Assembly: GCA_015232565.1 (NCBI GenBank) | Contig: JADFZK010000014.1 | Location: 1-61,518 of the forward strand | Length of the DNA stretch: 61,518 nucleotides | Direction of reading: 5' to 3' | From: Candidatus Omnitrophota bacterium | GTDB lineage: Bacteria > Omnitrophota > Gorgyraeia > Zapsychrales > Fredricksoniimonadaceae | Shown here: in pieces, positions 1 to 61,518 of the stretch | Layout: every line of letters begins with the position of its first letter | Position numbering within the stretch: the first letter of the stretch is position 1 | Notes under the pieces: generated by a model | Seen by the model: the letters and a program-made list of their open reading frames with translations, nothing else | Database searches by the model: none | What the model was told of the DNA's origin: nothing | Position numbers and translations under genes: made by a program

Positions 1-38
1 TACTATAGCTGTAATGGTCCGGGGCGGAAGCCTTCTAG

Positions 39-2054
39 ATGATTATCAACCTGAGTCCCTACGAAAAGAACCGCATTGTGCCGGAAGCCTTCGGCCAGAC
101 CGAAATGGGCCGCGATCTTCTGGCGCAGGATTATCTTTTGAAACAGATCACCGCTTCGGTTATTTACCCGGAAGGCGATATCGGCAAGCAATTCTGGGGC
201 CGGGTTTACGCCGAAGCGTTCCAGCGTTATGGCACGACCGATATTCCGGTGGATACGTTCAACAAGGTGTGGATCGTTCCGGCCAAGGCCGTGGTGTACG
301 AGAGCAAAGAAGCGGCCTATGTGGTGGAAAGTCACCTGAAAGTCATGCTGGAGACTGACTATTTAGCCACCCAGGTCTCAACCCCAACGCCAAACGACCC
401 CAACGATATCGCCAGGGAAGTCCTGCGCGAGATCGTGATCCCGATCCTGGAAAAAGAAGTGAACGAGGGAATGACCTTCGCCCCGCTCCGGCAGATCTAT
501 TATTCGCTGATCCTGGCCACATGGTATAAGCGGAAAGTCAAGGATAGCATTATGGGGCAAGCCTATGTTGACCGGAATAAAACCGCAGGTATCGATATAG
601 CCGATAAGAATCAGAAAGAGTGGATCTGGCAACAATACGTTGAGGCGTTCAGGAAGGGAGCGTATAATTACATCAAGGAAGATTACAATCTGGTAACGCA
701 AGAAGTGGTGCCCCGGGAATATTTTGCCGGCGGGGCCGACATGGGGCAGGTGGCCCGAACGTATGCGCCAACATTTGATGCCGCAGCGTTGCCTTCAGCG
801 AGTGATCGAATGCTGTCGGTTCAAATGGAAACTCAGCTGCTAGATCTTTCCCCGAAGCCTTCTGATAATGCCTCAACGTCCGGGCGCAAGCAACTGCTGG
901 TATGGGCAAAGGAACACCAGGGGCAGACAGTTGACGTGACACTGGAAGAATTGGCAACTCAATATAATTATACGCGTCAGAGGGTACATCAGATTGCCAG
1001 TAAATATGGCATTAAAACGAAAGGAAATGTGTCCAGAGAGGGAGTGCAGCTTTTGCGGGCATGGGCCGAAAAACATCGTGGAGAAATAGTCGACATAACT
1101 TTAGTGGAATTGGGGTTACAATTCGCCATTAATTCTTATACAGTGAGTGGGATATTGAAAAAATATGATATTAAGACAAGCGGTCAAAGAAGAAAGCGGG
1201 ACCCAACGAAAGGCGCGGAACGTTTGCGAGAGTTTGCAAAGAAACATCGCGATGAAACATTAGATATGTTTTCGAGAGAGATTGATCAAGAATATGGACT
1301 TTCACCAGGGAGGATTAAGCAAATATTGGGTGAAAATAATGTGAGGACTAAAGGCCAGGTGCAGACCGAGGGCGCGAAACGTTTGCGAGCGTTTGCAGAG
1401 AAACATCGCAATGAAACATTAGATATGGTTTTGAGTGAACTTGCTCAAGAATATAACCTTTCAATAAGGAGAGTACATGAAATATTGCGTGAATATAATA
1501 TTAAGACAAAAGGTAAACTGCAGACTGAGGGCGCGAAACTTTTGCGAGCGTTTGCTGAGAAACATCGTGATGAAACATTAGATATGTTTGCGAGAGAGAT
1601 TGGTCAAGAATATGTACTTTCAGGAAATAGAGTCATACAGATATTAGGTGAATATAATATCAAGACGAAAGGTATGGTTCAGCCCGAAGGCGAGGAACTT
1701 ATGCGAGGGTGGGCCAAGCAAAATCAGGGGCAAACAGTGAACGTTACTGCTGTGGAGCTAGGGAGAATATATAGCCTTAAGCCTTGGCGAGTGTATCAGA
1801 TTCTAAGAGAATTCAACATTAAGATCGCCGTAATGCGGGCTGGGCGTAAAGACTCCAGTATGTCTGACAATGCTGGTGGTATCAATCTTGATCCCGCGCA
1901 ACTTGATCTTAAAACGAAAAACAACGATGGAGAGATCAAGTTTGACCTTGATCCCGCCATGCTTCAGCGTGTGCAGAACGTTTCCGGAGTTACCCCGGTC
2001 ATTTTAAATATCCTTCCGCTGGGAAGTCTGCAAAAGTTCCTGGACATAAGGTAA
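39..2054 (+). CDS. NLSPYEK-family giant protein, 5'-truncated, with six HTH-like repeats
   Basis: Residues 1-240 match the exported proteins starting at 12044 and 52308, beginning exactly at their NLSPYEKxRIVP motif. The signal peptide and first ~105 family residues are missing. An in-frame TAG (36-38) lies immediately before this ATG and the DNA before it is unrelated, so the gene is cut here. Residues ~280-605 hold six imperfect repeats of ~53-55 aa (from about nt 879, 1032, 1207, 1372, 1532 and 1690). Each has an AWAEKHRGE-like helix, then a YNLSxxRVHQILxEYxIKTKG-like segment resembling a helix-turn-helix or sigma region 4 recognition helix. The repeats look AT-richer than the flanks. The last ~60 residues (GGINLDP, then PVILNILPL) match the tail of the 12044 protein. 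Function unknown. The family match is seen in the sequence; DNA binding is inference. Confidence 0.75.
   Translation: MIINLSPYEKNRIVPEAFGQTEMGRDLLAQDYLLKQITASVIYPEGDIGKQFWGRVYAEAFQRYGTTDIPVDTFNKVWIVPAKAVVYESKEAAYVVESHLKVMLETDYLATQVSTPTPNDPNDIAREVLREIVIPILEKEVNEGMTFAPLRQIYYSLILATWYKRKVKDSIMGQAYVDRNKTAGIDIADKNQKEWIWQQYVEAFRKGAYNYIKEDYNLVTQEVVPREYFAGGADMGQVARTYAPTFDAAALPSASDRMLSVQMETQLLDLSPKPSDNASTSGRKQLLVWAKEHQGQTVDVTLEELATQYNYTRQRVHQIASKYGIKTKGNVSREGVQLLRAWAEKHRGEIVDITLVELGLQFAINSYTVSGILKKYDIKTSGQRRKRDPTKGAERLREFAKKHRDETLDMFSREIDQEYGLSPGRIKQILGENNVRTKGQVQTEGAKRLRAFAEKHRNETLDMVLSELAQEYNLSIRRVHEILREYNIKTKGKLQTEGAKLLRAFAEKHRDETLDMFAREIGQEYVLSGNRVIQILGEYNIKTKGMVQPEGEELMRGWAKQNQGQTVNVTAVELGRIYSLKPWRVYQILREFNIKIAVMRAGRKDSSMSDNAGGINLDPAQLDLKTKNNDGEIKFDLDPAMLQRVQNVSGVTPVILNILPLGSLQKFLDIR
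879..1845 (+). repeat. Six tandem HTH-like coding repeats (~160-nt unit)
   Basis: The unit recurs with a period of about 155-165 nt inside the first gene. Units 3, 4 and 5 are closest at DNA level: each carries a near-identical stretch around GCGTTTGCAGAGAAACATCG followed by GAAACATTAGATATG. Units 1, 2 and 6 are more diverged. This points to recent internal duplication of the central units. Confidence 0.8.
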
Positions 2055-12043: not shown

Positions 12044-15000
12044 ATGGGTGATTTGGGGATCAAAAGGGCGGTGAGTTTAATTGTTCTGGTGGTATTTATA
12101 CTTACCAGCGTAGTGCCGCCATCCTGTGCTCAATCGTTGTTGCAGTTGCCGGCCGTGGATCAAATGGTGGCGTTAAGCCCTGCTTTTAATCCGGCCGTTT
12201 TAAAAGGGATCAAGGTGTATCCGCAAGATCCTTTGCGGCTGGATTTTATTCTGGCCAATGGGGAAGCTTCGGGCAATGGTGCCGGCCATGCACTGCAAGG
12301 TGAAGCCTCGCGCCTGATCAAGTATTTTCTCGCCTCCCTGACCATTCCGGAAAAAGACCTGTGGGTTAACTTAAGCCCGTACGAAAAAGACCGGATCGTG
12401 CCGGAAGTTTTCGGCCAGACCGAGATGGGGCGGGATCTTTTGGCGCAGGACTATATCTTAAAACAGGTTACGGCTTCCTTGCTTTATCCTGAAGGGGAGA
12501 CTGGCAAAAAGTTTTGGCAACGCATTTATGCCTTGGCGCAGGAGAAATACGGCACTACTGATGTTCCGTTTGACGCGTTTAACAAAGTGTGGATCGTTCC
12601 GGATAAAGCCGAGGTGTACGAGAACGCCAAGGCCGGAACAGCTTATGTCCTGGAAAGCCGCCTGAAAGTAATGCTGGAAGCCGATTATCTGGCATCTCAG
12701 GTCTCCCCCCAAACGCCAACCACCCCCAATGACATCGCCAAAAACGTCCTGCGTGAGATCGTGATCCCGATACTGGAGGAAGAGGTTAATTCCGGCCGGA
12801 ACTTTGCGCCACTCCGCCAGGTGTACCAATCGTTAATTTTGGCGGAGTGGTACAAGCGGAAGATCAAGGACTCGTTATTGGCCATGGTTTATGTTGACCG
12901 GAATAAAACGGACGGCGTTAATGTGGCCGATCGTGCGGAGGCCGAAAAGATCTGGAGCCGATATGTGGAAGCTTTTAAGGCGGGGGTCTACAACCTGGTT
13001 AAAGAAGAGCGCGACTTGCTCACGGATGAGTTGATCCCCAGGAAATATTTCTCCGGGGGATGTGTGATGGCGCTGGATTCGGCGATGAATATACATACGG
13101 ATGCCGCTGCTATAGGCCCAAGCCTTCCTGGAGCTTTTGTGGTCAGGGCGAGAATGGGTGGAGCTGTGCTGGATGGTGCCCTGGAACGGCAGGCGTTCAA
13201 TGAATACATGAGAAATGATGAACTGCTTGCACCATTTATGGATCAGCCTTTGCGGGAGGCTTTTACCCCGCGGGTCAGGCAGGCTCTTTTAAGTGACCGT
13301 ACATTGCGTCCAGCTTTTATGGTGGTCTTCGATGAGAAAAACGGGGAAGTGGGGCCGCTTGAGGGTGTTGATGTGGAAGCGCTGGACCAGTTAGGGGGCA
13401 TTGATCTGCTAAATGCGCACTCTTGTTTCCTGGCCGGGTCTCCCGAGCGAGCGAATGGGGAAATAATGCAAGGCCGCAAGATAATAGTGGGCGTGACCGA
13501 CCGTTTCTCCCGGCAAAGTTTGATGAATAATATTCAGGTGGCCAATGGCCGGCAGGTTTATTTCCCTTTGCCTGAAGGTTCATGGCTGGGAGTTAAGGGC
13601 TCGGGAGATTTTCTGGATCCGCGAGCGGCTGAGCCATTTTTGGTGGATAAGGTTGCGGGCCGGTTGTGGGGCCTGGCCAGTGAAGATGAGGCCCGGCGCG
13701 CTGAACGAGGGCGTCCATTATTGGAAGGCAAAGATTACCTGGCGGTCCAGTTCCTGGGATATCGCCGGTTGAATGTTTTGATCGATGGAACAGGGAACCG
13801 GGTCAATGCCGCGGATCTGGATGTGCTAAAAGGTGATCATCCGGCCCTGATCTTTAACCGGGTCTTTACGCCGCACCGGTTGGTGAAACTGCCGCAATTG
13901 CTGGAGAATGATCCGGGCCTTAAGCAGTTGCATGCCGCGATCGCCGAGGTATTCCGTAATAATGGCCAGGAAGCGCCGGAAAACGCGGGGTCTATGCTGG
14001 CCGGCATTATCCGGCAAATGGCTGTTAATGCGGCCTTCAAGAATAACAATCAGCTGTACAAGGAAACATTTCATTTGCAGGATGTGCTTTTTAGCGGACA
14101 CGAGGCCGATAATGAAGAATGGATCTCTTACGAGGATCTGCTGGAACGGGTCAGTCATTTGCACGTGTTTGAATATCAGCCTTATGTCCGGCATTTTTTG
14201 CAAACGCATAAGATCAATCTTGACGAATTAAGTTTTAGTTTTTATCTGATGCGTTCTTTGCTTGAGGTTTTCTCCCAAGCCCCTGGTTCAGCTGAGTTGT
14301 TGTTAGCTGCCCGGGGCTTGCTTGAAGAATTCTTTAGCGTTTATCTGGCTAAATTAAACGACGAAAATTTAAGGGCCTGGTTGAAAGAGTACGATGTAAT
14401 TGAATTTGGGCCACAACGCCGGGCGGTGGCGCGTCCTTTGCAGTCAATATTTGCGTTTCAGCATCTGGAACGATTCCATCCACAGCCTTCGGGTCTGCCG
14501 GCCCGGGACAGTTTTGAGGTTATGCTGAGGTTGCAAACCATGCTGGAGAAAGAATCTGGCCGCCGGGGGATTATGCCACTGCCGGTGGTTGTTCCGGAGG
14601 GTGGGGCCAGGGTGGCTCCGGAGGTTTTGTTATCCGGGGATTATTTGGCGCCTGGATATCGCAGGGTTACCAGGGAAGATGAGGCTTATGGTAAATCCAG
14701 CTATCCGGCGGTGGATAGGTTGGAGATCTTAAGGGCGCTTAAAGAGTTGGGGGATTCGGATCTTCTTCCTTTCATGAAAGACCTTTCGGTTAATGCCCGG
14801 GAAGCGATCGTTTTGTATGCGCAAGGGCTGCAGACTGCCGCGGCAGTGCAAGCGTTGATCAATGCCGAGTTAATGCTGGCGCGGCCCGATGCTCCCCGGC
14901 TGATCGAGATTGCTTTGCCGGTAGTAAGGCTGTGGGCAAAATATGGCATGCGTTCTTCCATTAATCTTTTCATTTTGCAGATCTATCTGCAGGACGATGC

Positions 15001-15394
15001 AAATGAGACCGGTGATGTTCCGCCGGAGGAGCGGGATCTTATTGCGGTGGCCAGGCGTGAATTTGTGGACTTATTGAACAATGATCTCCCGGCTTCCGAG
15101 CAGGTAATGGCGCGTTTGAATACTCTTGAGCTTGGCGACCGCAATACCCTGCGGGAGGTTGACGCCGCGGCGGGGCAAAGTTTGGGGATGGCAAAGGGTA
15201 TGTTAAAAGGCGGTATCGATTTTAATGCCGGCAAAATGGAGTTGTCTGGTAAGGCCGTTGCTGGCGAGATCAAGTTTATACTTGATCCGGCGCTGGTGAA
15301 AATGATGCAGGATGCCAGTGGTATTGTGCCGGTCATTCTCAATATTCAGCCGCTGAAAGATCCCAAGTTGTTCCTGGGTTTATCGGGTAGTTAA
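12044..15394 (+). CDS. NLSPYEK-family exported giant protein (1116 aa)
   Basis: Signal peptide 1-29 (AVSLIVLVVFILTS, then PSCAQ) and a start fixed by GGGAGG upstream of ATG 12044. Residues ~30-345 form the family's constant region (SPAFNPAVLKGIKVYPQDP, LWVNLSPYEKDRIVPEVF, FNKVWIVPDKAEVYE, REIVIPILEEEV, IPRKYFSGG). The body (~350-1040) is not recognised: it contains FMVVFDEKNGE, GSWLGVKGSGDF and a helical C-terminal half (LEILRALKELGDSDLLPFM). The last ~65 residues (KGGIDFNAGKM, GEIKFILDPAL, VPVILNIQPLK) match the tail of the first gene in the window. Probably exported by Sec; function unknown. It lies alone between two copies of the aminotransferase 3' end, suggesting it arrived as part of an insertion. 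Confidence 0.8.
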   Translation: MGDLGIKRAVSLIVLVVFILTSVVPPSCAQSLLQLPAVDQMVALSPAFNPAVLKGIKVYPQDPLRLDFILANGEASGNGAGHALQGEASRLIKYFLASLTIPEKDLWVNLSPYEKDRIVPEVFGQTEMGRDLLAQDYILKQVTASLLYPEGETGKKFWQRIYALAQEKYGTTDVPFDAFNKVWIVPDKAEVYENAKAGTAYVLESRLKVMLEADYLASQVSPQTPTTPNDIAKNVLREIVIPILEEEVNSGRNFAPLRQVYQSLILAEWYKRKIKDSLLAMVYVDRNKTDGVNVADRAEAEKIWSRYVEAFKAGVYNLVKEERDLLTDELIPRKYFSGGCVMALDSAMNIHTDAAAIGPSLPGAFVVRARMGGAVLDGALERQAFNEYMRNDELLAPFMDQPLREAFTPRVRQALLSDRTLRPAFMVVFDEKNGEVGPLEGVDVEALDQLGGIDLLNAHSCFLAGSPERANGEIMQGRKIIVGVTDRFSRQSLMNNIQVANGRQVYFPLPEGSWLGVKGSGDFLDPRAAEPFLVDKVAGRLWGLASEDEARRAERGRPLLEGKDYLAVQFLGYRRLNVLIDGTGNRVNAADLDVLKGDHPALIFNRVFTPHRLVKLPQLLENDPGLKQLHAAIAEVFRNNGQEAPENAGSMLAGIIRQMAVNAAFKNNNQLYKETFHLQDVLFSGHEADNEEWISYEDLLERVSHLHVFEYQPYVRHFLQTHKINLDELSFSFYLMRSLLEVFSQAPGSAELLLAARGLLEEFFSVYLAKLNDENLRAWLKEYDVIEFGPQRRAVARPLQSIFAFQHLERFHPQPSGLPARDSFEVMLRLQTMLEKESGRRGIMPLPVVVPEGGARVAPEVLLSGDYLAPGYRRVTREDEAYGKSSYPAVDRLEILRALKELGDSDLLPFMKDLSVNAREAIVLYAQGLQTAAAVQALINAELMLARPDAPRLIEIALPVVRLWAKYGMRSSINLFILQIYLQDDANETGDVPPEERDLIAVARREFVDLLNNDLPASEQVMARLNTLELGDRNTLREVDAAAGQSLGMAKGMLKGGIDFNAGKMELSGKAVAGEIKFILDPALVKMMQDASGIVPVILNIQPLKDPKLFLGLSGS

Positions 15395-47389: not shown

Positions 47390-50300
47390 ACGTATCGAGC
47401 AACGCGGCACTTCAGTCTTCCTCTATTAGCCCTCAGCCTGGCGATGCTGGTGTCTGCCGCCAGCGAAACCTGGGCCTGGACAATGACTAACAATAATGTT
47501 TCGAATACCAAGGATAACTTCTATACCGTTGAACAGGCCGCGGCAATCGCGGCGGAGAGTGCGGGGCAATCCGGTGGTCGTAAAAAGAGTACGCCTGCGA
47601 ATGTATATACTCCTACTATCTATAACTTTAGAAGTTTTATAGATATAAAAAGGGTTGCCCAAGTTGGCGCTTCTCCTTCGGCGGTTGAGATAGAGTACAA
47701 AGACAATATGATGGAGGATTATGATATCAACGGGGTAATAATCGACGGCGATCAGCCGGTTACTTTGTTTATGCCGGCGGACTTGCGTACTACTAAGTAT
47801 GGGGATAAAGTCATTCAGAAATCATCAACTGAACCTTCGTTCTTTATTCCGACCAGAACGTATAAAGAATGGAAAAGCTTTGTTGATGCCAAATTTCCGG
47901 GTTCTTACGAGTGTCAATGCTCCTCCGGAAGTGCGAATTGCGACAACAATTGCAGTCTTAATGGTTGTGAAACCAATATTACCCAGGCCGCCAATTGCGG
48001 CGCTTGTGGAATTGTCTGCACGATAAACCAGGCTTGCGTAGCCACCGGAGCAACCTGGGCCTGTCAGGACACTGCGACTTGCACGGACAACATTCAAAAT
48101 GGCGCGGAAACCGGCGTCGATTGCGGCGGGCCTTCGTGTTCTGCCTGTGTGGCCGGGCCAACTTGTTCGGATCTCACCAGGAATGGCGGTGAGGCGGGAG
48201 TTGATTGCGGTGGTTCTTGCGCCCCCTGTCCGGATTCTTGCGGTATTGCGTGTGAGGCAACGTCGGGTATTATTAACACCAGGGCGTCAAGTTCTGCCCC
48301 TATAGACTTGGCCTTCCAATGTAGCAAGGGCCGTTTGCTGGCAGTCAAGAATGCGGCCAATCCTGGTGTGGTTTTGAATTATTCTGACCTGCGGGTGGTT
48401 TGTCCGACCGTAGGGGCTTTGGAAATGACCGCTTATAATTCATCCAATAATTCCGATCCGTATACATTGGTCTGTTCCGGCGGCTTCCTGAAAAAAATAT
48501 GCCTGAACAGTTCGACAGCGCTTCCGCCCACTATAAGCACTTGTGATGACGGCAGTATTCCGGCCGGGTTTCCGGCAGGCGGCGTTTTCTGTAATTTCGA
48601 TGGCTGGATGCATATGACGGCCAGCGATGCAAATGGACTTTCGGCCGCTGATGTCCTGTGTGAGAACAATATGGTTATGGGTGTCAGGCAAGCCAATAAT
48701 GCAGTGGACTCGATGTTCGCCAAGTTGCAATGTTGCAATGCCGGTTACTGGTGGGATACAAACGTTCAAAGTTGCAAGGCTAATACTTGCCTGGGCACGC
48801 GTCCGGTTGGTGCAGTTCCGGCTTCCGCTTTCGAGGAAAACAGTATACCGGTGAATGATACGCCCTGGTCGATGGTTACCGCTAATACTGCGGCAGTGTG
48901 TGAAAGTGTGTGCAGTGGCGCGGGGCTGGTCTGGAATGGGGTTGCCTGTGCCAGGTGTGGGAACAGGATAATAGAACCCGGGGAGCAGTGTGATACAGAT
49001 TTCAGCGGGTGCACAAGCAGTTGTCAGTTAGAAGTGCAAGAGGTCTCTTGTGTTGTGGATGATCCTTTAAAGCATAAATTACATACGCCAAACGAAAAAA
49101 TTACTAAAACATGCATTACGCCTGGGAGAGACCAGTGTGAGGCTTGGTCAACTCCGACGTCTGCGGTTCCTTTTGGTCCTGGGGGCGTTCCAGTGATGGG
49201 GGCGCATTATGACGGATCTTCCGAGGGGCCATGTCAGTATGATTGCAATGCCTACACTACCTGGAATGGCTCGGCTTGTGTAGCTCCGTTATGTGGTAAT
49301 GGGCGCATAGATCGCCCGGACGAGCAGTGTGACGGAGCTGATGGCTGTAACGCTATATGCCGGTGGAATACCGAGATTTGGCCGTGTATTTTGCCCGCAA
49401 CCGAGAGTCCGACTTCAGCAGTGTTTAATACGACCGGGCAGATCACCTGTACTCGTGTTGGTCTGTGGGATCTGGTTTGTCCCGGTTTGAGTTCGGGTCA
49501 ACCTGCCAGTACTACAGTATATAGTTTGACGCCATCTACCACTCAGTGCAGATTTAAATGCAACACGGGCTACGTATGGAACTCTTCCGCGTCGGTATGT
49601 CAGTTGTCGGCTGTTATGGCGTGCGTCTTGCCCGGCAGTAATGTTGCCCAGGTGCTTAATCCCCCGGCGAGCATTACTCAGGTATATAACGCAGCAACAG
49701 CAGCCTGGTCGCCTTCGGGCTATGCTACATATAGTGCAACGCCGGTGGCTGACAGTTGTACCTATTCGTGCAATTCCGGGAATGGTTATTTCTTTAATGG
49801 TACGGCTTGTGTTCTTCCGAGTTGCAGTGACGGTATTATTAACGGCAGTGAACAGGCAGTTGACTGCGGCGGAACGTGCGCGGCTTGTGTTTGTGGCAGC
49901 GGGGTGGTGACTGCGGGTATGCAGTGCGACGGCGGCCGAGGGTGTAATAATTGTACTTGTTTGCCGGACTATGTGCCAACAACGCCTCCGGGGAAAGCGT
50001 GCAAGTTGCAAACATGTAATGGGGTCGCTTTTATGGGAGTTACGCGTAATAACGGGGAAGAATGTGACGGGGGCAATGGTTGTGAGAATTGCGCTTGTCA
50101 GGCTGGCTGGCAGCCCACTACCCCCCCGAGTAAAGATTGTGTCAGGATCGTGTGTGGCAATGGCCTGCGCGACTCCGGTGAGGATTGTGATAATGGGGCC
50201 AATTGTACTGCTTGCCGTTGTAACAAGGGCTATGGCCCGACCAGCGCAACCAGCACGGCGTGTCAATTACTGCCTTGCGGCACCGGAGCTGTTTTAGCGG

Positions 50301-50791
50301 GTAATCCTCTGGGCTGTTCAGGTGTGCCATCATGCGAGCTGGCTTCCAATTATCCGCTTAATCCTTTGGGCTGGACCACGGATGAAGTGTTTCTTTACCG
50401 GCGCGGACACGGCTGGCATCCGTCCTTTACTACGGAGTCTTTTGTCGTGACGAAAATAGTCACCGCCGATGACTTTACGGAAGATATTCCCTTGCCGGCC
50501 GGATTCAGTTCCGGGAAGATCTATGTGGCTATAGACAATTGTGGTGTTATTAACGCGGTGGATGCGAGCGGTGGAAATACGGTGTTGGACAAGATCAATA
50601 CGGTTAACGGGACCGGCTGTACTGAGGACGTTGGCTGGCCGTTTGCATCGGAACGTACGGTCAATATTGCTCCGCCCGCGGGTACTGCTTATAAATCCAT
50701 TAAGATTAAAGTTATTCAGATCAAGCCGGGTAATTTTATGTCGCCTCTTGGCGTCAGGTATCGTATACAATATTGCGGTGTTAATCCATAA
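47390..50791 (+). CDS. Cysteine-rich exported protein with DUF4215-like repeats
   Basis: About 1133 aa. A strong ribosome site (CAGGAGG, 47378-47384) lies five bases before an ACG codon at 47390, and a signal peptide follows directly (FSLPLLALSLAMLVSAASETWA); the only canonical start in frame nearby is TTG 47330, which has no ribosome site and would put 20 extra residues ahead. The mature protein is rich in Cys: repeats of NGAETGVDCGGPSCSAC type, CGNGRIDRPDEQCDGADGC type (Myxococcales Cys-rich, DUF4215-like) and a NGCETNI...NCGACG block. The C-terminal ~150 aa (GFSSGKIYVAIDNCGVINAV) may be a beta-sandwich. Probably a surface protein stabilised by disulfides; function unknown. Confidence 0.8.
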   Translation, partial: TYRATRHFSLPLLALSLAMLVSAASETWAWTMTNNNVSNTKDNFYTVEQAAAIAAESAGQSGGRKKSTPANVYTPTIYNFRSFIDIKRVAQVGASPSAVEIEYKDNMMEDYDINGVIIDGDQPVTLFMPADLRTTKYGDKVIQKSSTEPSFFIPTRTYKEWKSFVDAKFPGSYECQCSSGSANCDNNCSLNGCETNITQAANCGACGIVCTINQACVATGATWACQDTATCTDNIQNGAETGVDCGGPSCSACVAGPTCSDLTRNGGEAGVDCGGSCAPCPDSCGIACEATSGIINTRASSSAPIDLAFQCSKGRLLAVKNAANPGVVLNYSDLRVVCPTVGALEMTAYNSSNNSDPYTLVCSGGFLKKICLNSSTALPPTISTCDDGSIPAGFPAGGVFCNFDGWMHMTASDANGLSAADVLCENNMVMGVRQANNAVDSMFAKLQCCNAGYWWDTNVQSCKANTCLGTRPVGAVPASAFEENSIPVNDTPWSMVTANTAAVCESVCSGAGLVWNGVACARCGNRIIEPGEQCDTDFSGCTSSCQLEVQEVSCVVDDPLKHKLHTPNEKITKTCITPGRDQCEAWSTPTSAVPFGPGGVPVMGAHYDGSSEGPCQYDCNAYTTWNGSACVAPLCGNGRIDRPDEQCDGADGCNAICRWNTEIWPCILPATESPTSAVFNTTGQITCTRVGLWDLVCPGLSSGQPASTTVYSLTPSTTQCRFKCNTGYVWNSSASVCQLSAVMACVLPGSNVAQVLNPPASITQVYNAATAAWSPSGYATYSATPVADSCTYSCNSGNGYFFNGTACVLPSCSDGIINGSEQAVDCGGTCAACVCGSGVVTAGMQCDGGRGCNNCTCLPDYVPTTPPGKACKLQTCNGVAFMGVTRNNGEECDGGNGCENCACQAGWQPTTPPSKDCVRIVCGNGLRDSGEDCDNGANCTACRCNKGYGPTSATSTACQLLPCGTGAVLAGNPLGCSGVPSCELASNYPLNPLGWTTDEVFLYRRGHGWHPSFTTESFVVTKIVTADDFTEDIPLPAGFSSGKIYVAIDNCGVINAVDASGGNTVLDKINTVNGTGCTEDVGWPFASERTVNIAPPAGTAYKSIKIKVIQIKPGNFMSPLGVRYRIQYCGVNP

Positions 50792-52260: not shown

Positions 52261-52307
52261 TCAACAGGTAAGGGTTACTGGCGTTGTATCATATTGAGGG
52301 TATGTTG

Positions 52308-55300
52308 ATGTTCGCTTTGAATAACGTTTTAATAAAACGTCCGCTGGCTTTTATTGTGGCGGTGTTATTTTCTGCCCAGACGGCGCTTCCGGCCGCGGTA
52401 TTGGGCCAGGCTTTGCCGCGCCTTGATATTGCGGCGAGTCCGGTTATGCCTCTGGCCGCCTTTCAGCCGGCGGTGCTCAAGGGTCTGCGTGTTTCCCCCG
52501 ATAAACCATTCGCTTTCGATTTTATTGTGGAAGAAGGCAATACCGCGCGCTCGGCGGCCGGTTTGCGCATTGAGGCCGGTAAGCTTATTAAAGATTTCGT
52601 CGTGGCGCTGGCTATTCCCGAAAAAGATCTGTGGGTAAACTTAAGCCCGTATGAACCCGACCGGATCATGCCCGCGGCTTTTGCCGCTACGGCCATGGGG
52701 CGTAATTTACTGGAGCAGGACGCAGTGCTTAAGCGTCTGGCCGCGTCTTTAACTCATCCGGATACCACTTTGGGCCGGGAGTTCTGGCGCCGGGTTTATG
52801 CCCGCGTCCGTGAGAAGTATGGCACGGTGGATGTGCCGCTGGATGCGCTCACCAAGGTCTGGATAGCGCCCGACAAAGCGGTGGTTTACGAGAAGCCGAC
52901 CCAAGGGCCGGCCAGTGACGAAAGCAAAATAGTTTATGTGAGTGAAGCCAGCCTGAAAGTCTTGCTGGAGAAAGATTATGTGGCGCTGGCGCGGCAGGGT
53001 ACCGGATCCGCGGGTGAGCTGTTGGCGTCATCGGCGCCGGCCAATGACAGCATCAGTGAAGAGGTGGCTCGGGAAGTGCTTTTGCCGGAGCTTAACCGGG
53101 AAGTTAACGAGGGAGCCCAGTTTGCCGGGTTAAGGCAGGTTTACAATGCGGTTATCCTGGCGGCGTGGTATAAGGCGCGGCTGAAGGCTTCGCTCCTGGG
53201 CCAGGGTTTTGCCAATAAGGGCCAGATCGCGCCGTCGCAAGCGGCCAGCCCGCAGGCTCGCGAGCGGATCTACCAGGAGTATCTGTCTGTTTTTCGTAAG
53301 GGTGTTTACAGCCTTATCCGGGAAGAGGCCGATCCGGACACCGGCGAAATGATCCCGCGTAAATATTTCTCCGGCGGTGTTTCGCTGGAGGTTGAGCCCG
53401 AGGTTACCGCCCGCTTGCCTGGCATCGGAACGCGCCGGCATTCGGTGGTGAGTGGTTTTATGAAAGGGCCGGACCATGCGGAAGTTAATTCGCAAAGTAT
53501 GGACTGGCCAAAAGCGGAGTATGGCCCGGCTTTGCGGCTGGCTGGCGGTGCGGGGTTATTGTCGGCTGGCGGGAAGTTCATGGCGATGGTTGAGCCTCGG
53601 CCGGCAAGCGAGGAATGTTTGGTGCATGTTCAGGGTACTGACCCGGGGGCTAAAGAGACGTGGGTAAGGTCCTCTCAGCTCATTACTATGGCTGCAGTCT
53701 CGGATGATGGTAAATATCTGGTTACAGTAAGTAATTTTTCTAACTGGAATTCGGTTGTTTTATTATGGGCACGCTCTGGCAATGGGGGTTTTGTTCCCGT
53801 TATAAGAGATAATGAAATGGGCGTGGATATCACTAGCCGTATTGTTCATGCCGAATGGTCAGTTAAGAACGAACTTATGCTGGTTACGGCCGACAGACGT
53901 TTTATGGTCCTGGACCAGAAAGGGAGTCAGCTTTGGGAGAACCAGTTAGCGCCGACGGCTAAGCCGGTGGCGCATTTTATACACGAAGGATTACTGGTGT
54001 CAGCGATCATGCCGGATGGAAAATTGACTTTCTTTAATGGTTCAACAGGTGAAAAGATGGACGCAATCAGCGCGGGCGGGTCAAGTTATGTTTATACACC
54101 ACCTGGATTTGATGATAGCTATTCTGATGAGGCGCGCGTTCAAGGGGGTGAGCTGAAGTGGTTTTGGATGCAGGATAAGAAGTGGCAAAATATCCAGTTC
54201 AGTCATCCAGCCGAAGTGATCAGTATAAAATTCTCGGATAAGGCCGACCATTTGCTTACGCTCGATGCCAACGGTACCGTGCGGATATTCCAGAAAGGTA
54301 AGGGGCTGGTAAAAGAGTTTCCAGTCGATCCTGGCACGACCAACGCCTTCTTCTGGCCCGGCACCAACCATATAGTGGCTGGCTTTACCCGCGAGAGCGG
54401 CAAGATCTACGCTCCTATGTCTCTTGCGGCAACCCCTTCGGAGATTTCCGGGAAGGGCCGTGTTGATTGGGAGAAAGTCTCTGCAAATTATTTTCCGTTG
54501 CTCAACGAAAATATCGACCTGGAGGTTACATTAGCGCTTTCGCCGTTGCTGGACGGAACGGCAGCCACTTATCCCTGGGGGCAAAGATCCCTTATGGTGG
54601 TACCGACATCTCAACCGGGGGTAGAGATTTTCTTTCCAGAGAATATAAATTCGGTAGTTTTTATTGGGAATAGCGGAAAGCTGGCGGTGGGGTTTGAGTC
54701 GGGGCATGTCCAGCTTCTGGATGTTGCTACCCTTCCCAAGTCGGGCGAGTATGCAATGGAATTGCCTGCTATGCCCCCCGGTCTGGCGCCTGGGCAGAAG
54801 TCGACCCCGGCCCGGGTGTTCACCGGGCAGAATGCGGATAATTATATGGTCAATCGCAATGGCCGGCTGGAATTCTGGTCGGTAGCGGCGGGTGAAATGT
54901 TTGAGGTTGTTCCTATTAGCAATGGTGCCACCGTAAAGGCCGCGGCCATGTCTTTGGATGGCCGGAGAGTTGCTTTTCTCAACAGCAATCGGGATGTTAT
55001 CTTGATGGAGATCGCTTCGGGCAAGATCCTTATGATGCAGAACAATGTGGCGGCCATAGAGGGGGCCGTGGATCTGATGTTTTCTCCCGGCGGTCAAGAA
55101 GTGCTGGTCTTTGTGCCACAGGTAGAAGAATTGAAGGCGGTGGTCTTCGATCCTTCTTTACCGAGAGAAAGCGGCCAGATCGCGGCGGATTTCCGGATGT
55201 CCCCTGACATTCCAAAGAAAGTCATAGGGACGTCTTTTAGTTCCGGTACGAAAGTTGCCTGGTTAGACCTGCCCCAGAAATTGGTGGTTGTGCCGCCTTC

Positions 55301-58300
55301 TGCCGCGCCGGAGCTGGTTACGGGGTCTATTGCCGATGCATTGAAGAATGGCGGGTATTTGGCGGCATTCGCGCAATACATTCTGCCTGGCGGGTCTAAC
55401 GTCCCGATGCCGCCGGGAGGTATTGATCTGACGCCAGCGAAAGCGCCCTCTAATCCCAAGGGGGCAGGTGGCCAGAAGCAAGCGCAGGGCAACTTCTATG
55501 CTGGGATGATAAATGGAATGAATAATGTGTTGGGTTTCAGTCCGCTTGATTTAATTAAATCTCTTAAGGAAATGGGCGAGCAAGTAGAAATCACGGGATT
55601 TGCGCCGTCCATACCCGGTGCCGACCACTTGCAGGTGGTCTTGGTATCGATGTCGCAGAATACTCCGGTTACTCCTTTAATCGGTGGGCTTGCTTCGCCG
55701 AGCCTGGCTTCGGGTAATGGTTATAATTTCATTGGGAGCATTCTGCCGGTGATTGAGGCTACTGGGCCGGCAGGGGCGCCTGACAGGACTGTTATGGAGA
55801 TCGACCCTCTGGGTTTCTCTCCGGTCCGCTATGAGGTGCTTACGCAAGATATCCCTCAGCCAAATCCGCAGGTTATTAAAATGCGGACGCTGAGCAGGCG
55901 GTTTATCCGGCTGAATAATGATCTGCTCTCCTTGTTGGGAAAAGGCTCCAGTGCGGAGGAGGTTAAAACTTTCTTTGCCAAACTGCGCGAGTTTGTGCAG
56001 GTGTACCTGGTATTGTGTAAGGCCGGTGTTATGGGCGATGGCTATGGTATTAATAATCACCCGCAAGGCCTGCCTGACCTGGAGCTGGTAGCCGCGGATA
56101 GTGGTGACCTTGAGGGCGGACGCGCGTCGGCCAGGATCTATTTGCGTTTGTATAAACAATTCATGGGCGGCGATCGTCCCCGGATAGCCAGGGAATCCTC
56201 CTCTGTTATCTTTCAGGAACTGGCACTGGTTAACGTGGTGCAAAAAGATAAAACCACTACTCTTATCGGCCAGCCTTTTGAAACTACAGAACAAAAAAGC
56301 CCTGCGGTTCTGGACGGTATTACTGCTCATGAGCTGATAAATATTCTGCATCAGAAAGCCAATCGTAATATGGCCGCCATTTACGCCAGAATGAATGTGA
56401 AACGGCACGTGGCCAGGATTGCGGCTTGGTCGGCGCAAGGTGGTAAGGAATGGGGTATCCATTATCTGGATGGCCGGCAGAATCCGGACAAGCCGGTGGC
56501 AGGCGCTATGCTGGTGCTGGCCCGGGCTTTGGCCCGGAATCAATTTATGCACCCGGCCGATCCGCCGTTCCCGTTTGATTCCTCCAATACGAGTGTGGTA
56601 AGTATTTCTGCCGACGATGTCTCGGCCGAAGCCGCTTTCACGCTTGGTCTGCATTCCGCCGAGGTGGCTTTCGACCTGCGGCCTTTCAGCCAGGGCGGCA
56701 TGATCCAGATCGGCTATACGGATAGCGGTAATGCTTATAAGCCGGGCAGCAGTATTCGGTTTGAAGCGCTGATCCAGGCTTTTACGGCTTTTGGTTTTAA
56801 AGTTACCCGGGCCGCCGAGGTCATGCATTTTGATGCGGTTATCGATAAAGAGAATGCCGCGGGCGTGCGCTCGGCCGGGGAGTTGATAGCGCGGCTGGAG
56901 TCCGCCATCCAGGTTTTGATGTATAGCAAGGATCTGGACTTGTGGAGCATGGGGTGGACGGCGGCTGATTGGTCAAATATGATGCGTTTTATTCAGGAAA
57001 CGAGAGTAAATCCGTTAGCTGTTTTGGGAGCAAGAGACATTTTAAACGGCTTGAGTCCGCTTAGGTTATTGACGGATGATGATAGGGATTTGTTCCCGGT
57101 TTTTTCCGCATTCCAGTTTGGTGCTTTAAAGAATCTACTTAATAAGATCTTCGTGGCAAGACCCGGACAAAATTTAGCGGATCTGCAACAGCGTTTGGCG
57201 GAGTTTATGACGGCCAACGGCTATTTAGATCGTAATGCGGTGCGTCTTGGGGCTGAGGCGGGCGCGGTGAAGTCCTGGGAGGCTTTAACTGTGGAGGCCG
57301 AGCGTTTGCATATTCCCCTGGCCCTGCCCAATGGCCAGCGGCGTCTGGATGCGTTTCAGGCTGAACTGGCCAAAAGGCTGGCCAGCGGAGCGATCATTGT
57401 GGAAAACGGGGCTTTGCAGGTTAATTCGGCCTACACTGAGGCCGAGAGCGGGGTTTCGCGGGTGCAGGCTTTGTTAACTCATCTGGAGCAGGCCAATGCC
57501 CAGGAGCGGGAGGAAGGCGCGCGTATCGCCTTGCTGGCCGACCTGCTGGCGCCGTTGATGGCCGAGCGGCCCGAGGCGGCGGTGGTGGGCGGTTACGCCA
57601 TGACCCGGGAGCGGTTTACCTGGCTGGGTGAAGATATAACTTTCTTTGTTCTGCGGGATGCCAATGGCCGCGCGGTCTTTGCCGAAGCGGTGATGGGCGA
57701 GTTCTATTTTGCCCGGCCGCGTTTTGACCCCTGGCGTTTGCGTCAATTGCCGGATAACCGGCTGGGTTTTAATGATCTGGTAGAGATCCTGCGCTCCCGG
57801 GACATAAGTATCCAGGATGAGTTCAGCGCGCGTTTTACGCCGGGCAGTTTAAATGCCGGCGGGGAAGAAACGGTCGATTATTATGAGAGGTTGCGGCAGG
57901 TCCCGGTGACTGACCTGGGAGTAATAGATGAACAGGTGTTCTTGCAACCGGCGCTGGTCGGCAGTGTAGCAGTAGGTCCGGTGGCTTTGAACGGGCAGGT
58001 TAATGTGGCGGCATCAGCTTTCGGGTTGGCGGTGGATATAGCGGAACCCGACCCGGGCAAGTTCGCCGGGGCGATAATACTGTCCAATAGTATTGATACC
58101 CGTAACGATGCGCTTTTGGCCGAGGTTGCGCGCACTGGCGGCGCTTTGTTAATGACCGGCGGCGGGTCCAATTCCCATGGCTCAATTTGTGCGCGCCAGC
58201 TCAAGCTGGCTTCCGGTATTATGCCGCTGGCAACCTACGACGGGCGGGGTTTGCATTTTGCGGCGCCTTCCGCCGAGCGTGCGCGGACCACGGTAAACTT

Positions 58301-60776
58301 TGCCGGGCGCGACCTGGTGGCCTACGAAAGTGCGGGCCATTCCCGGACCACGCAGGTAATTTCCCAGGGCGACCTGGTGTATTACGATGGCCACCAGGCG
58401 GCCGCTTATCTGGTAGCCAGGGCGGAGGACAGTAAAACCCAGGCGGCGTTTAAGGCTTATAGTGAATGGCGGAGCGATTCAACGCTTGAAGGGCGCGGCC
58501 GGCGTTTGGCGGAAATATTGCAAAGTTCCGAGGCGCCGGGCTTCCTGAGGGCGGCGCTCAGCGATGTTATGGACCACGAGCGGCTTACGCCTGATGAATT
58601 TAATCAAATGATGGGCGTGTTGCAAGGCGCCGCGACGGGGCAGTTTCAGATATTGCAAGAGTTTCTGGCCCATATCGTTAATAATGTGGCCGGCCAGTAT
58701 CGGGAGGTGGTCACACAGGTGAAACAGCAGTTGCAAGACGATAAAGAGGGCGTTTTACCGGCCAATGAGTTGGCGCTTTTGGCGTACCGGATAGAAACGG
58801 TATGGCAGCGTTTGACAGATCTGGTTACTTTGGCCAACGGGGGTGTGGCCGATCCCCAGGCGGTCCTGGCTCCGGCCCGGGCAGAGCGGTCGGGGATCTT
58901 TCAGGAGCTTAGTAAGCGGGTGGAGAAAGAGCGTTTACTGGTGAGCAACGAGGCCAGAAAGGCGGAGGCCCGCGCGCAGGAATTGCTGGACCAGAAGTTC
59001 TACGGCGATGCCGGCAATGAACGCCGGCTCAATCCCGAGGATGCGCTATATTTGAGAAGGCTGGAGAAATTGCAGGAGCGCATCGATATTATGGGGATCG
59101 ATGGGCCGCGGGAGTTTCCTTCTTTAACCAAAATTGCGGCTTTGCTTAACGCTCGTTACCGGGTCTTGAACGCCGGGCTGGCCAGGGATGGCATAATCTG
59201 GAAACAGGATGTTAGTGATCCGGGGATCCGGGATCTTATCGGGGGCAAGGGTGCGCATTCGGCGGAGCTGTATCGGCTTATTAATGCGATCAATGGCCAT
59301 GATGGTGCCGTGCCGCAGTCTTTTCTGCAGGGCCTCCGGGTGGCTGTTCCGCCGGGGTTCTTTATTACTACCGCTGAATATCAGAATTGGCTGGCCGACG
59401 GTCAGGGCGAGTTTCGGCCGGAGTTCAAAAAAGCCCTGGAGACCGCTTACTTGGATCTGTTTGTTAGTCAGGGGGCCGAGATCGTTGCTTTTATAGAAAA
59501 TGATAATGATACTCCTGAGGATAGCAGGGTAGTAATCAAATTATTGGATCTTAAAGAAAGAGTAAAGAATGCTGATGTAGACAGAAGAATGATATCCCGG
59601 TTAATCAATTTTAGGCGGTTGATGCTGGAGTCATCGCAAGAAATTACTCCTGCTTTAAAGCTGCGCCTGGAAGGCTGGGGGCGGGTGGCGGTGCGTTCTT
59701 CGGGCCTGGTGGAAGACAGCCAGGCCAATGCCGCGGCAGGGAAGTTCAAGACGGTGGTTAATGTAATAGGCCTGTGGCCGTATGAGGAGGTAAATGTTGA
59801 GCGCTTTCCGGAAGATCAAAGGCAAGCCATTATTGCCAGTTTAAGCCTTCGGGGTTGGGTGAATACGCAATCGAATAAAGTGTTTGTGGATCAGGATTTT
59901 CTTGACCTGGATGAAGAGTTCCGGCGAGAATTTCCGGGTTTAACCAGGGATCAGCTCAATGATATTCAAACCGCCCTGGAGGAAGCGCAGGGTTTGTACG
60001 CTGCGGTAAAGCGGGTATGGCGTTCCGGCGCGGAGGGTGTGGAGGTGGATGGCATGATCGCGGGGGCGCGTTCGGCGGTTATTATCACGGCCGATGTGGC
60101 CCGGCATACATTGCGGCGGGTTAAGATCGACGGAGCCCATGGCGCGGCCGGCCCGTTGGTAAGCAGCCGGATACAGGACCCGGATACCTATTATGTGGAT
60201 GCGCTAAGCGGAGTTACTCAGGAGCGGCATGTAGGCGCTCAAATAGTGGATGGTAAGGCTCGGGACGGTAACGGCGAGCCGGTATTTACCGAACGTGAGC
60301 GGGCGGTTATGGCCGCGCTGGCCGTGATAATCAACAGGAATATGGGTTATATAGCTTCCGACCAGGAAGCGCTTATGGATGCTGAAGGGCTTTTGTATTA
60401 CTTACAAACCCGCCCGGAAACAACTCTCCGGGCAAAAGTGAAAGCCGGTTTGGCCGTGCTGAGCCGGAATGATTACGCCGCGGGTAGCACCACGGATGCC
60501 GCGGTTGCCGACTCGCAGAATGTCCGGACCGTTCGCCAGCCGGTGGATAATGCGGCCAGGCGCACCGACCAGCTCGGCGGCATAACCCTGGATCCCCGGT
60601 TCATGAACGATGCCGCCCGGGGCCCGGTGGCGCAGGGTAATGGGGCCGCTGGCATAAAGCGTGCCAATTTATTGCCGGGATCCGGGCCAAATTTCGCCGG
60701 CGGCCTGGTCCCGCAAATAACCGCCGTCCAGCACATCTCCAGCCGCGACCTGACCCGGCTACTTTCCGGCCGTTAA
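52308..60776 (+). CDS. NLSPYEK-family exported giant protein with WD40-like and C-terminal dikinase-like module (2822 aa)
   Basis: ATG 52308 has GAGGG at a good distance; ATG 52302 is too close to it. Signal peptide ~1-35 (LAFIVAVLFSAQTALPAA). Residues ~35-360 are the family constant region (LWVNLSPYEPDRIMP, IPRKYFSGG). Residues ~400-1020 look like a WD40-type propeller (VSDDGKYLVTVS, FSDKADHLLTLDANGTVRIF). Around residue 1035 there is an internal PPGGIDLTPAK, like the family tail motif. Residues ~1040-1880 are unrecognised. At ~1935-1975 lies a PEP-utiliser mobile-like domain with the phosphohistidine motif GGGSNSHGSICARQ (H1957). At ~2300-2705 lies a PPDK_N-like ATP-grasp domain (LIGGKGAHSAEL, VPPGFFITT, VAVRSSGLVEDSQAN, YYLQTRPET). 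The His domain before the ATP domain is the order of alpha-glucan water dikinases, not PEP synthase. Tail LGGITLDPRF. Confidence 0.82.
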   Translation: MFALNNVLIKRPLAFIVAVLFSAQTALPAAVLGQALPRLDIAASPVMPLAAFQPAVLKGLRVSPDKPFAFDFIVEEGNTARSAAGLRIEAGKLIKDFVVALAIPEKDLWVNLSPYEPDRIMPAAFAATAMGRNLLEQDAVLKRLAASLTHPDTTLGREFWRRVYARVREKYGTVDVPLDALTKVWIAPDKAVVYEKPTQGPASDESKIVYVSEASLKVLLEKDYVALARQGTGSAGELLASSAPANDSISEEVAREVLLPELNREVNEGAQFAGLRQVYNAVILAAWYKARLKASLLGQGFANKGQIAPSQAASPQARERIYQEYLSVFRKGVYSLIREEADPDTGEMIPRKYFSGGVSLEVEPEVTARLPGIGTRRHSVVSGFMKGPDHAEVNSQSMDWPKAEYGPALRLAGGAGLLSAGGKFMAMVEPRPASEECLVHVQGTDPGAKETWVRSSQLITMAAVSDDGKYLVTVSNFSNWNSVVLLWARSGNGGFVPVIRDNEMGVDITSRIVHAEWSVKNELMLVTADRRFMVLDQKGSQLWENQLAPTAKPVAHFIHEGLLVSAIMPDGKLTFFNGSTGEKMDAISAGGSSYVYTPPGFDDSYSDEARVQGGELKWFWMQDKKWQNIQFSHPAEVISIKFSDKADHLLTLDANGTVRIFQKGKGLVKEFPVDPGTTNAFFWPGTNHIVAGFTRESGKIYAPMSLAATPSEISGKGRVDWEKVSANYFPLLNENIDLEVTLALSPLLDGTAATYPWGQRSLMVVPTSQPGVEIFFPENINSVVFIGNSGKLAVGFESGHVQLLDVATLPKSGEYAMELPAMPPGLAPGQKSTPARVFTGQNADNYMVNRNGRLEFWSVAAGEMFEVVPISNGATVKAAAMSLDGRRVAFLNSNRDVILMEIASGKILMMQNNVAAIEGAVDLMFSPGGQEVLVFVPQVEELKAVVFDPSLPRESGQIAADFRMSPDIPKKVIGTSFSSGTKVAWLDLPQKLVVVPPSAAPELVTGSIADALKNGGYLAAFAQYILPGGSNVPMPPGGIDLTPAKAPSNPKGAGGQKQAQGNFYAGMINGMNNVLGFSPLDLIKSLKEMGEQVEITGFAPSIPGADHLQVVLVSMSQNTPVTPLIGGLASPSLASGNGYNFIGSILPVIEATGPAGAPDRTVMEIDPLGFSPVRYEVLTQDIPQPNPQVIKMRTLSRRFIRLNNDLLSLLGKGSSAEEVKTFFAKLREFVQVYLVLCKAGVMGDGYGINNHPQGLPDLELVAADSGDLEGGRASARIYLRLYKQFMGGDRPRIARESSSVIFQELALVNVVQKDKTTTLIGQPFETTEQKSPAVLDGITAHELINILHQKANRNMAAIYARMNVKRHVARIAAWSAQGGKEWGIHYLDGRQNPDKPVAGAMLVLARALARNQFMHPADPPFPFDSSNTSVVSISADDVSAEAAFTLGLHSAEVAFDLRPFSQGGMIQIGYTDSGNAYKPGSSIRFEALIQAFTAFGFKVTRAAEVMHFDAVIDKENAAGVRSAGELIARLESAIQVLMYSKDLDLWSMGWTAADWSNMMRFIQETRVNPLAVLGARDILNGLSPLRLLTDDDRDLFPVFSAFQFGALKNLLNKIFVARPGQNLADLQQRLAEFMTANGYLDRNAVRLGAEAGAVKSWEALTVEAERLHIPLALPNGQRRLDAFQAELAKRLASGAIIVENGALQVNSAYTEAESGVSRVQALLTHLEQANAQEREEGARIALLADLLAPLMAERPEAAVVGGYAMTRERFTWLGEDITFFVLRDANGRAVFAEAVMGEFYFARPRFDPWRLRQLPDNRLGFNDLVEILRSRDISIQDEFSARFTPGSLNAGGEETVDYYERLRQVPVTDLGVIDEQVFLQPALVGSVAVGPVALNGQVNVAASAFGLAVDIAEPDPGKFAGAIILSNSIDTRNDALLAEVARTGGALLMTGGGSNSHGSICARQLKLASGIMPLATYDGRGLHFAAPSAERARTTVNFAGRDLVAYESAGHSRTTQVISQGDLVYYDGHQAAAYLVARAEDSKTQAAFKAYSEWRSDSTLEGRGRRLAEILQSSEAPGFLRAALSDVMDHERLTPDEFNQMMGVLQGAATGQFQILQEFLAHIVNNVAGQYREVVTQVKQQLQDDKEGVLPANELALLAYRIETVWQRLTDLVTLANGGVADPQAVLAPARAERSGIFQELSKRVEKERLLVSNEARKAEARAQELLDQKFYGDAGNERRLNPEDALYLRRLEKLQERIDIMGIDGPREFPSLTKIAALLNARYRVLNAGLARDGIIWKQDVSDPGIRDLIGGKGAHSAELYRLINAINGHDGAVPQSFLQGLRVAVPPGFFITTAEYQNWLADGQGEFRPEFKKALETAYLDLFVSQGAEIVAFIENDNDTPEDSRVVIKLLDLKERVKNADVDRRMISRLINFRRLMLESSQEITPALKLRLEGWGRVAVRSSGLVEDSQANAAAGKFKTVVNVIGLWPYEEVNVERFPEDQRQAIIASLSLRGWVNTQSNKVFVDQDFLDLDEEFRREFPGLTRDQLNDIQTALEEAQGLYAAVKRVWRSGAEGVEVDGMIAGARSAVIITADVARHTLRRVKIDGAHGAAGPLVSSRIQDPDTYYVDALSGVTQERHVGAQIVDGKARDGNGEPVFTERERAVMAALAVIINRNMGYIASDQEALMDAEGLLYYLQTRPETTLRAKVKAGLAVLSRNDYAAGSTTDAAVADSQNVRTVRQPVDNAARRTDQLGGITLDPRFMNDAARGPVAQGNGAAGIKRANLLPGSGPNFAGGLVPQITAVQHISSRDLTRLLSGR

Positions 60777-61102: not shown

Positions 61103-61157
61103 TTGTAGTGGTGGCGCATTATTGTGATGTATGCATTACATGAACGGGGAGATCGTT

Positions 61158-61481
61158 ATGCGAAAACTTACTTCCAGTCTTATTCTTGCGGTATTTGTTT
61201 TAAGCTGTATCACGCCTCCGGCCGGGTTAGCGCAAACGCTGGTGGGCGCGGGCCTTCTGCCTGCTCCGGGTACGATGTTGCCGCCGTCCGCGGCTTATGT
61301 GCCGGCGCATTTGCGCGCGGTGACCATCGACCCCCGGGATCCTTTCCGTTTCGAGTTTCTGATCCGTAAAAGTGAAATGCCCATGAGCGATGCCGAAAAG
61401 CAATCCGCTTACCGGGACCTGTTGAAATATTTCCTGGCCGCGCTGGCGGTGCCCGACGAGCAACAATGGGTCACCCATTAG
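61158..61481 (+). CDS. N-terminal stub of an NLSPYEK-family exported protein
   Basis: 107 aa ending at TAG 61479-61481. ATG 61158 is chosen for GGGGA upstream and the signal peptide that follows (KLTSSLILAVFVLSCITPPA, then GLAQ); an earlier in-frame ATG at 61131 lacks these. The mature part matches the family constant region (PAHLRAVTIDPRDPFRFEFL, LKYFLAALAVPDEQQWV) and stops abruptly at WV, just where relatives continue NLSPYEK. The following bases TAGAAGGCTT are the reverse complement of AAGCCTTCTA at 28-37, next to the truncated gene at position 39. Either the gene is really interrupted or this is an assembly edge. Confidence 0.7.
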   Translation: MRKLTSSLILAVFVLSCITPPAGLAQTLVGAGLLPAPGTMLPPSAAYVPAHLRAVTIDPRDPFRFEFLIRKSEMPMSDAEKQSAYRDLLKYFLAALAVPDEQQWVTH

Positions 61482-61518
61482 AAGGCTTGTGTCAAGAGAA
61501 AAAAGCTCCGCCCCGTCA

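Follow-up and report, generated by a model that had tools for sequence, protein, structure and literature searches.

An Omnitrophota protein with an export signal and a probable dikinase of swapped domain order belongs to a large carrier family whose recognisable cargo is mostly of cytoplasmic type

Positions 1 to 61,518 of contig JADFZK010000014.1, from a Candidatus Omnitrophota bacterium (assembly GCA_015232565.1) of this poorly known phylum, were analysed, and this whole stretch of 61,518 nucleotides is called the window below. Towards its end lies the open reading frame (ORF) of protein P0001 (52284-60776, plus strand, as are all its parts; 2830 codons counted from the TTG at 52284), whose likely start is the ATG at 52302, with GAGGG just 5' of it, or the ATG at 52308. 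The initial annotation had described it as a glucan-water-dikinase-like module in a protein with a signal peptide. P0001 opens with a Sec-type signal peptide (52302..52412) showing a KR n-region, a hydrophobic stretch and a c-region of small residues; here and in the paralogues signal peptides were called from a hydropathy and n-region scan together with the sequence. It is followed by a Pfam-negative domain of about 320 amino acids (52413..53378), here termed the carrier domain, which ends at the near-invariant junction motif PRKYFSGG (53355-53378). The next region (53466..55403) consists of repeats and may form a beta-propeller, all of its WD40-type Pfam matches being below cut-off. The N-terminal half of a conserved dikinase core (55821..57920, residues 1180-1880) is a candidate acceptor-binding or regulatory region. 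It leads into a phosphohistidine swivel domain of the PEP-utilizer type (57951..58448), identified by alignment, by Pfam in orthologues and by Foldseek. A linker of about 250 residues without family match (58449..59189, placed by alignment A3) then connects to a PPDK_N-type ATP-grasp (59190..60458), recognised by Pfam and in alignments. A C-terminal segment starting with GGITLD (60576..60773) completes the protein.

The phosphohistidine motif GGGSNSHGSICARQ of P0001 is located at 58158-58199, and the codon of its catalytic His at 58176-58178; numbering from the TTG at 52284 makes this residue H1965, and numbering from the ATG at 52308 gives H1957, as in the initial annotation, whose positions all proved correct. 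It precedes the ATP-grasp, which was matched by the PPDK_N family over residues 2317-2720 with an E-value of 7e-16, passing the Pfam cut-off, and which is closed by YYLQTRPET at about 60423, exactly as had been annotated. Equivalents of the ATP-site residues are all kept, namely Lys (K2322), Arg (R2471), Asp-x-Glu (D2693/E2695) and Gln-x-Arg (Q2708/R2710), and the ATP-grasp bears an insertion of about 80 residues past its VRSSG...NV segment. The His domain of P0001 itself falls under Pfam detection; in orthologues, PF00391 was significant at the same alignment columns (E=2e-10, 1e-6 and 5e-5). We also modelled the N-terminal half of the core and the His domain of an orthologue (mean pLDDT 66, with 82-91 in the His domain). 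In Foldseek the His domain matched the phosphoryl-carrier domain of PPDK (2fm4; TMt 0.71, probability 1.0), and no PDB fold match was obtained for the 650 residues before it in this model of moderate confidence. Pfam searches of P0001 and of three distant orthologues gave no PEP-utilizers_C barrel, in agreement with the earlier statement that the phosphoenolpyruvate (PEP) barrel is missing. As judged from these residues, the dikinase of P0001 looks intact and is probably catalytically competent.

The whole core of about 1550 residues was recovered from another Omnitrophota genome, G086, in a protein of 3443 residues, with 24-31% identity over residues 1180-2726 of P0001 and E-values down to 5e-52; the segment of residues 1180-1553 gave 31% identity (E=2e-39). 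Further copies of the core occur in genomes G128, G130, G132 and G135 among the 384 Omnitrophota genomes sampled. When 84,980 species genomes were scanned and the best 80 loci examined, full-core relatives came from Omnitrophota only, the other loci being partial matches, mostly to the ATP-grasp half. Core alignments comprised five to six rows, the six-row set being P0001 and five distant orthologues. The six cores have diverged to 23-41% identity with the key residues kept throughout: the catalytic His, the lysine of GGK and the arginine of RSSG are present in every row, P0001 included, and the D-x-E and Q-x-R residues in all rows that reach that far. Loss of ATP-binding residues, which would have refuted the initial annotation, was thus not seen on alignment. 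All three orthologues with the N-terminus covered (G086, G132 and G135) open with a signal peptide, and in these three a different N-terminal domain ('QDAH', by eye TraB/ChaN-like) stands where P0001 has its carrier domain. Export signals therefore precede the same dikinase core in two frames that are unrelated to each other. At the N-termini of loci L036, L106 and L109, exported Omnitrophota proteins have a 'QDAHxxxxAQ' domain, again TraB/ChaN-like by eye, replacing the PRKYFSGG carrier; this domain is perhaps a second carrier type.

The ancestry of the module was approached through profiles, as a one-sequence PDB search gave no match and a six-row profile was required. With a profile of both domains, the best PDB match was PEP synthase 8a8e (E=5e-52), and matches in swapped order were obtained to both 8a8e and 5hv2: in the profile the His domain (699-777) precedes the ATP-grasp (1105-1441), whereas in PEP synthase the ATP-grasp (17-365) precedes the His domain (377-456). 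By sequence profile, both domains are thus nearest to PEP synthase. The initial annotation had taken the order of domains as the mark of an alpha-glucan water dikinase (GWD), and a true bacterial GWD that phosphorylates a storage glucan held by its N-terminal regions would indeed show His before ATP-grasp and no PEP barrel; starch synthase and phosphoglucomutase are, moreover, found among the cargo of the same carrier family. We nevertheless regard a GWD as very unlikely. The nearest solved relatives are PEP synthases, and the His motif of the orthologues has the PEP-synthase form TTGGxxSHAAIRARE. Pfam found no carbohydrate-binding family in P0001 or three orthologues, whereas N-terminal starch-binding modules (CBM45/CBM20) mark a GWD, the presence of the CBM45 model in the library being unconfirmed. 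In addition, two carrier-borne enzymes are circularly permuted with respect to solved structures, so that order is a weak marker in this family: in the enolase of G048 the C-domain (chain 138-414) precedes the N-domain (chain 3-134), and in the iPGM of G067 chain 230-505 precedes chain 3-193. Where both domains could be detected in other carrier dikinases, the ATP-grasp nearly always comes before the His domain, which is the PPDK order. Given these permuted enzymes and the PPDK order of the other family dikinases, the P0001 module is more simply explained by PEP-synthase/PPDK descent with permuted domains than as a glucan dikinase. The GWD assignment was rejected on the ground that order is not diagnostic in the carrier family and that the collections searched contained no GWD sequence for comparison. 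NCBIfam models of rifampin phosphotransferase (RPH) scored far under cut-off, and in an orthologue only.

What the initial annotation overlooked is that P0001 has dozens of relatives, all exported carrier proteins with cargo of cytoplasmic type. The first 360 or so residues of P0001 gave 85 matches across its own 2.64-Mb genome, from which 73 carrier-bearing ORFs were extracted, 39 paralogues being aligned (alignment A2). We estimate the family in this genome at about 60 proteins, each consisting of a signal peptide, the domain of about 320 residues, a variable middle and usually a C-terminal tail of about 55 residues with the pattern GGID(L/F)...GLxPVIxxIxPL. The motif [IV]PRKYFSGG, or a one-letter variant, ends every full carrier domain in which the motif search succeeded. 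Almost all members whose 3' end is intact have the tail, which ends 54 of the 60 own-genome ORFs longer than 500 residues; searched for independently, 56 tails were found in the genome, about 49 of them in carrier-bearing ORFs. Directly after the propeller-like region of P0001, an internal 'GGIDLT' (55416-55445, residue 1045) resembles the start of this tail and is possibly the scar of a carrier/propeller protein that was fused to the dikinase core. Of 286 Omnitrophota genomes that are at least 85% complete, 99 encode the carrier domain; nearly all listed genomes of the same order have it, with about 5 to 80 candidates each on first look. Among 60 carriers from other genomes, all showed the junction, 55 had a signal segment of strong hydrophobicity and 50 had the tail, 52 of the 60 being 3'-complete. 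In the open-access literature that we searched, on giant or secreted proteins of Omnitrophota, on permuted enolase and on glycolytic fusions that are exported, this family was not described; the carrier system is apparently undescribed and phylum-wide.

If the hydrophobic N-terminus did not act in export, the family would remain cytoplasmic or cytoplasm-facing, and its cytoplasmic-type cargo would find ATP where it is available. This appears highly improbable, since the signal peptides of about 50 paralogues are uniform and tripartite, with a basic n-region, 12-15 hydrophobic residues and AxA-Q ends, since the signal segment recurs in the carriers of other genomes, and since orthologues in other frameworks bear different signal peptides. 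The signal peptide noted earlier in P0001 is present and recurs in the paralogues and in the three distant orthologues, where its absence would have refuted the initial annotation. It remains puzzling that an enzyme which depends on ATP should follow an export signal.

Recognisable cargo, as far as Pfam families tell, consists mostly of cytoplasmic-type enzymes. In the genome of P0001, three dikinase-type modules (P0001, C41 and C65) and a phosphoglucomutase (PGM/PMM) with all four domains lie behind the carrier, together with an ABC1 kinase, S-adenosylmethionine (SAM) methyltransferases, two HATPases, a receiver, DnaJ, an M48 peptidase, HEAT repeats and helix-turn-helix repeats. Other genomes add adenylate kinase with aldose epimerase, starch synthase, GNAT, LpxC, radical SAM with B12-binding, phosphofructokinase with iPGM, PGK and enolase. 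Runs of glycolytic enzymes share one polypeptide in L304 (G043; 2991 residues, GAPDH-GAPDH-PGK-enolase-aldolase), L305 (G047; 2281 residues, TIM-aldolase-enolase) and L303 (G065; 2819 residues, PGK-enolase), each of which shows all parts of the frame, from signal peptide and carrier domain to junction and tail. Among the fused enzymes, the copies of GAPDH, PGK, enolase and iPGM that were inspected retain their active-site motifs. Housekeeping copies accompany the carrier copies in nearly all cases, the exception being enolase in G048, a 95%-complete genome. Of the 54 genomes from the same order, at least 18 have PPDK_N in ORFs of at least 1200 residues, and every one of the eight such proteins covered in full was a carrier. 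A PPDK_N-like stretch (E=1e-7) also lies within an ORF of 33383 residues around 80786 of G034:C5.

Taken together, we put at about an even chance the reading that P0001 is a modular carrier protein exported with a dikinase as its cargo, an ATP-dependent enzyme that is probably active and descends from PEP synthase/PPDK with its domains swapped, and that its family places central-carbon and other cytoplasmic-type enzymes outside the cytoplasm of the producer. Somewhat more tentatively, short of even, we propose that a dedicated Omnitrophota export scaffold of signal peptide, PRKYFSGG domain and GGID tail mounts active central-metabolism enzymes, among them consecutive glycolytic steps, PPDK-type dikinases and adenylate kinase, for work outside the cell's own cytoplasm, probably in or on a partner or prey cell, with P0001 as its dikinase member of swapped order. 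The Sec signal peptide would carry P0001 out of the cytoplasm, where the PRKYFSGG carrier domain may anchor the cargo, pass it on or be cut from it, the GGID tail acting likewise at the other end in most members. The conserved residues suggest that the ATP-grasp would bind ATP and that the swivel domain with His1965 would take the phosphoryl group, leaving AMP. The phosphate could then pass to an acceptor held by the upstream core region of 700 residues, where we place the acceptor because the pyruvate barrel is missing. The cargo, with its kinases, mutases, NAD- and SAM-type domains and DNA-binding repeats, needs nucleotides and sugar phosphates, and its destination would therefore be another cell, the interface with such a cell, or an enclosed compartment of the producer itself. 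Such substrates would exist in the cytosol of a partner or prey cell, or in the zone of contact between the two cells, in line with the predatory or parasitic lifestyle that has been proposed for Omnitrophota (PMC10066038).

Alternatively, the carrier system may serve the envelope of the producer, either as compartmentalised glycolysis in the periplasm or another membrane-bound space, or at the surface as hard-wired counterparts of the well-known moonlighting glycolytic adhesins. The signal peptides have clear cleavage sites, consecutive pathway steps are held in one polypeptide, and GAPDH, PGK, enolase, FBA, TIM, PFK and PGM, which recur as cargo, are the classical surface-moonlighting enzymes. 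An ordinary periplasm, however, is not expected to hold ATP, NAD and sugar phosphates. The cargo also extends to receiver domains and to domains that bind DNA or depend on SAM, and catalytic residues are kept although surface binding would not require them. We consider this alternative doubtful, though with a real share of the probability.

Several results weigh against the main reading of an exported, active dikinase in a family of exported enzymes. No secretion machine was identified, and the structure model of the carrier domain, which belongs to no Pfam family, was poor (pLDDT 59) and gave no fold match. An ATP/ADP translocase, which could connect exported ATP chemistry with the producer, was not found in the genome of P0001 or in 54 same-order genomes, in a search whose control was likewise silent. 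The GGID tail was not recognised in P0001 itself: the tail profile misses the GGITLD segment, which stands at the position of the tail, at E<=0.001, and its score resembles that of shuffled sequence, so that the tail seems to be degenerate or absent. About three quarters of the cargo has no Pfam match, and the TIM and aldolase pieces are without catalytic motifs and look degenerate. These last features, along with circular permutation and an identity of 25-35% to housekeeping copies, would be expected if giant proteins merely shuffled housekeeping domains without activity and the dikinase were a relic. Such domain scrap is unlikely, as all key residues are kept in P0001 and across the six diverged dikinase cores, and active-site residues are kept in the permuted enolase and iPGM.

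Further members of the family lie in the window on the plus strand. One (12044..15394) has a signal peptide, PRKYFSGG, Pfam-negative cargo and a good GGID tail. Another (39..2054) is without its 5' part: it begins with MIINLSPYE and has PREYFAGG, helix-turn-helix-like repeats and a good GGID tail. At the opposite end, the 5' part of another carrier gene (61137..61478) is interrupted at WVTH*. Ten carrier genes in all were broken at the identical codon (WVN|LSPYE), nearly all at contig ends; the ten 5' halves share the end '...ACCCATTAGAAGGCTTGTGTCAAGAG...' and the ten 3' halves the start '...CGGAAGCCTTCTAGATGATTATCAA'. The break sites are at window positions 1-50 and 61473-61518 and in L047, L048, L053, L058, L068, L073-L076, L082, L083 and L085-L091. 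This suggests either a multi-copy element at one conserved site of the paralogues or a programmed joining of gene halves, with TAGAAGGCTT/AAGCCTTCTA as inverted ends. Only one 5' half (L085:1-640) runs on, for about 590 bp without a long ORF, and it ends in a different repeated sequence, shared with the ends of L037 and L039; an intron explanation was sought in Rfam, and this one 600-bp flank gave no match. A palindromic in-frame repeat (GCTATGCCAACCAGGGGACATGATGCCCCGCC...) occurs within the carrier domains of several genes, and the assembly breaks there (ends of L077 and L079, start of L070). On two IMG/VR contigs, whose DNA may be bacterial and wrongly assigned, a carrier gene that ends in a good tail (L195:278-2499 and L196:278-2499) is near two genes that are radical SAM/SPASM-like by eye; a possible role of these neighbours is modification of the PRKYFSGG or GGID motifs. 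Elsewhere in the window, 18808-39328 encodes three tandem proteins of about 2200-2390 residues, by eye a subtilisin-like protease with Ig-like repeats, with near-identical C-termini (...NYANGVSGEITVNPN), and 47330-50791 encodes a cysteine-rich, Pfam-negative protein of 1153 residues with 'CGNGxxDxGExCD'-type repeats.

The giant and large ORFs of Omnitrophota have few annotated domains and obscure roles (PMC10066038). Through its motif, the constant frame described here makes a large part of them recognisable, with dozens of members per genome and a striking bias to cytoplasmic-type enzymes. If its members are exported and active, parts of glycolysis and phosphotransfer would run outside the cytoplasm of their bacterial producer, and Omnitrophota predation or parasitism may send metabolic enzymes instead of toxins. 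The dikinase of P0001 would be a permuted addition to the ATP-grasp/phosphohistidine superfamily; the carrier system and its cargo, more than this single module, are the surprising part worth follow-up.

Among known systems, PEP synthase and PPDK (PF01326 + PF00391 + PF02896) are nearest in sequence and share with P0001 the ATP-grasp with its Lys, Arg, Asp-x-Glu and Gln-x-Arg residues and the His swivel domain, whereas P0001 has His before ATP-grasp, no PEP/pyruvate barrel, about 700 additional conserved core residues upstream and an export signal. GWD and PWD have the same order, with a His domain followed by a C-terminal ATP-grasp, no barrel, and the catalytic His and ATP residues; P0001 differs from them in its PEP-synthase-like His motif and profile matches, in having no starch-binding module that we could find and in its export signal, in a comparison made without GWD sequences. 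RPH likewise combines an ATP-grasp and a His domain without PEP barrel and was matched in Foldseek and PDB searches, but it has the ATP-grasp first, a rifampin-binding domain between and the His domain last. The other Omnitrophota carrier dikinases (L046, L070/L307, L291-L297 and L301) share the signal peptide, carrier domain and junction motif with P0001; unlike it they have the tail, show the PPDK order where both domains were detected and are without the 1550-residue core. As a family, the carriers resemble polymorphic toxin/effector systems and C-terminal-tail sorting systems (the C-terminal domain, CTD, of the type IX secretion system, T9SS, and PEP-CTERM) in their constant export frame, highly variable cargo and many paralogues per genome, but no toxin or immunity domains were recognised, the GGID tail and the PRKYFSGG domain lie outside Pfam, and the cargo is metabolic. 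The eukaryotic TPI-GAPDH fusion proteins, which are targeted to mitochondria (PMC3527533), similarly have a targeting signal ahead of fused consecutive glycolytic enzymes; in contrast, the carrier proteins are bacterial, use a Sec signal, hold up to five enzymes and have an added carrier domain and tail.
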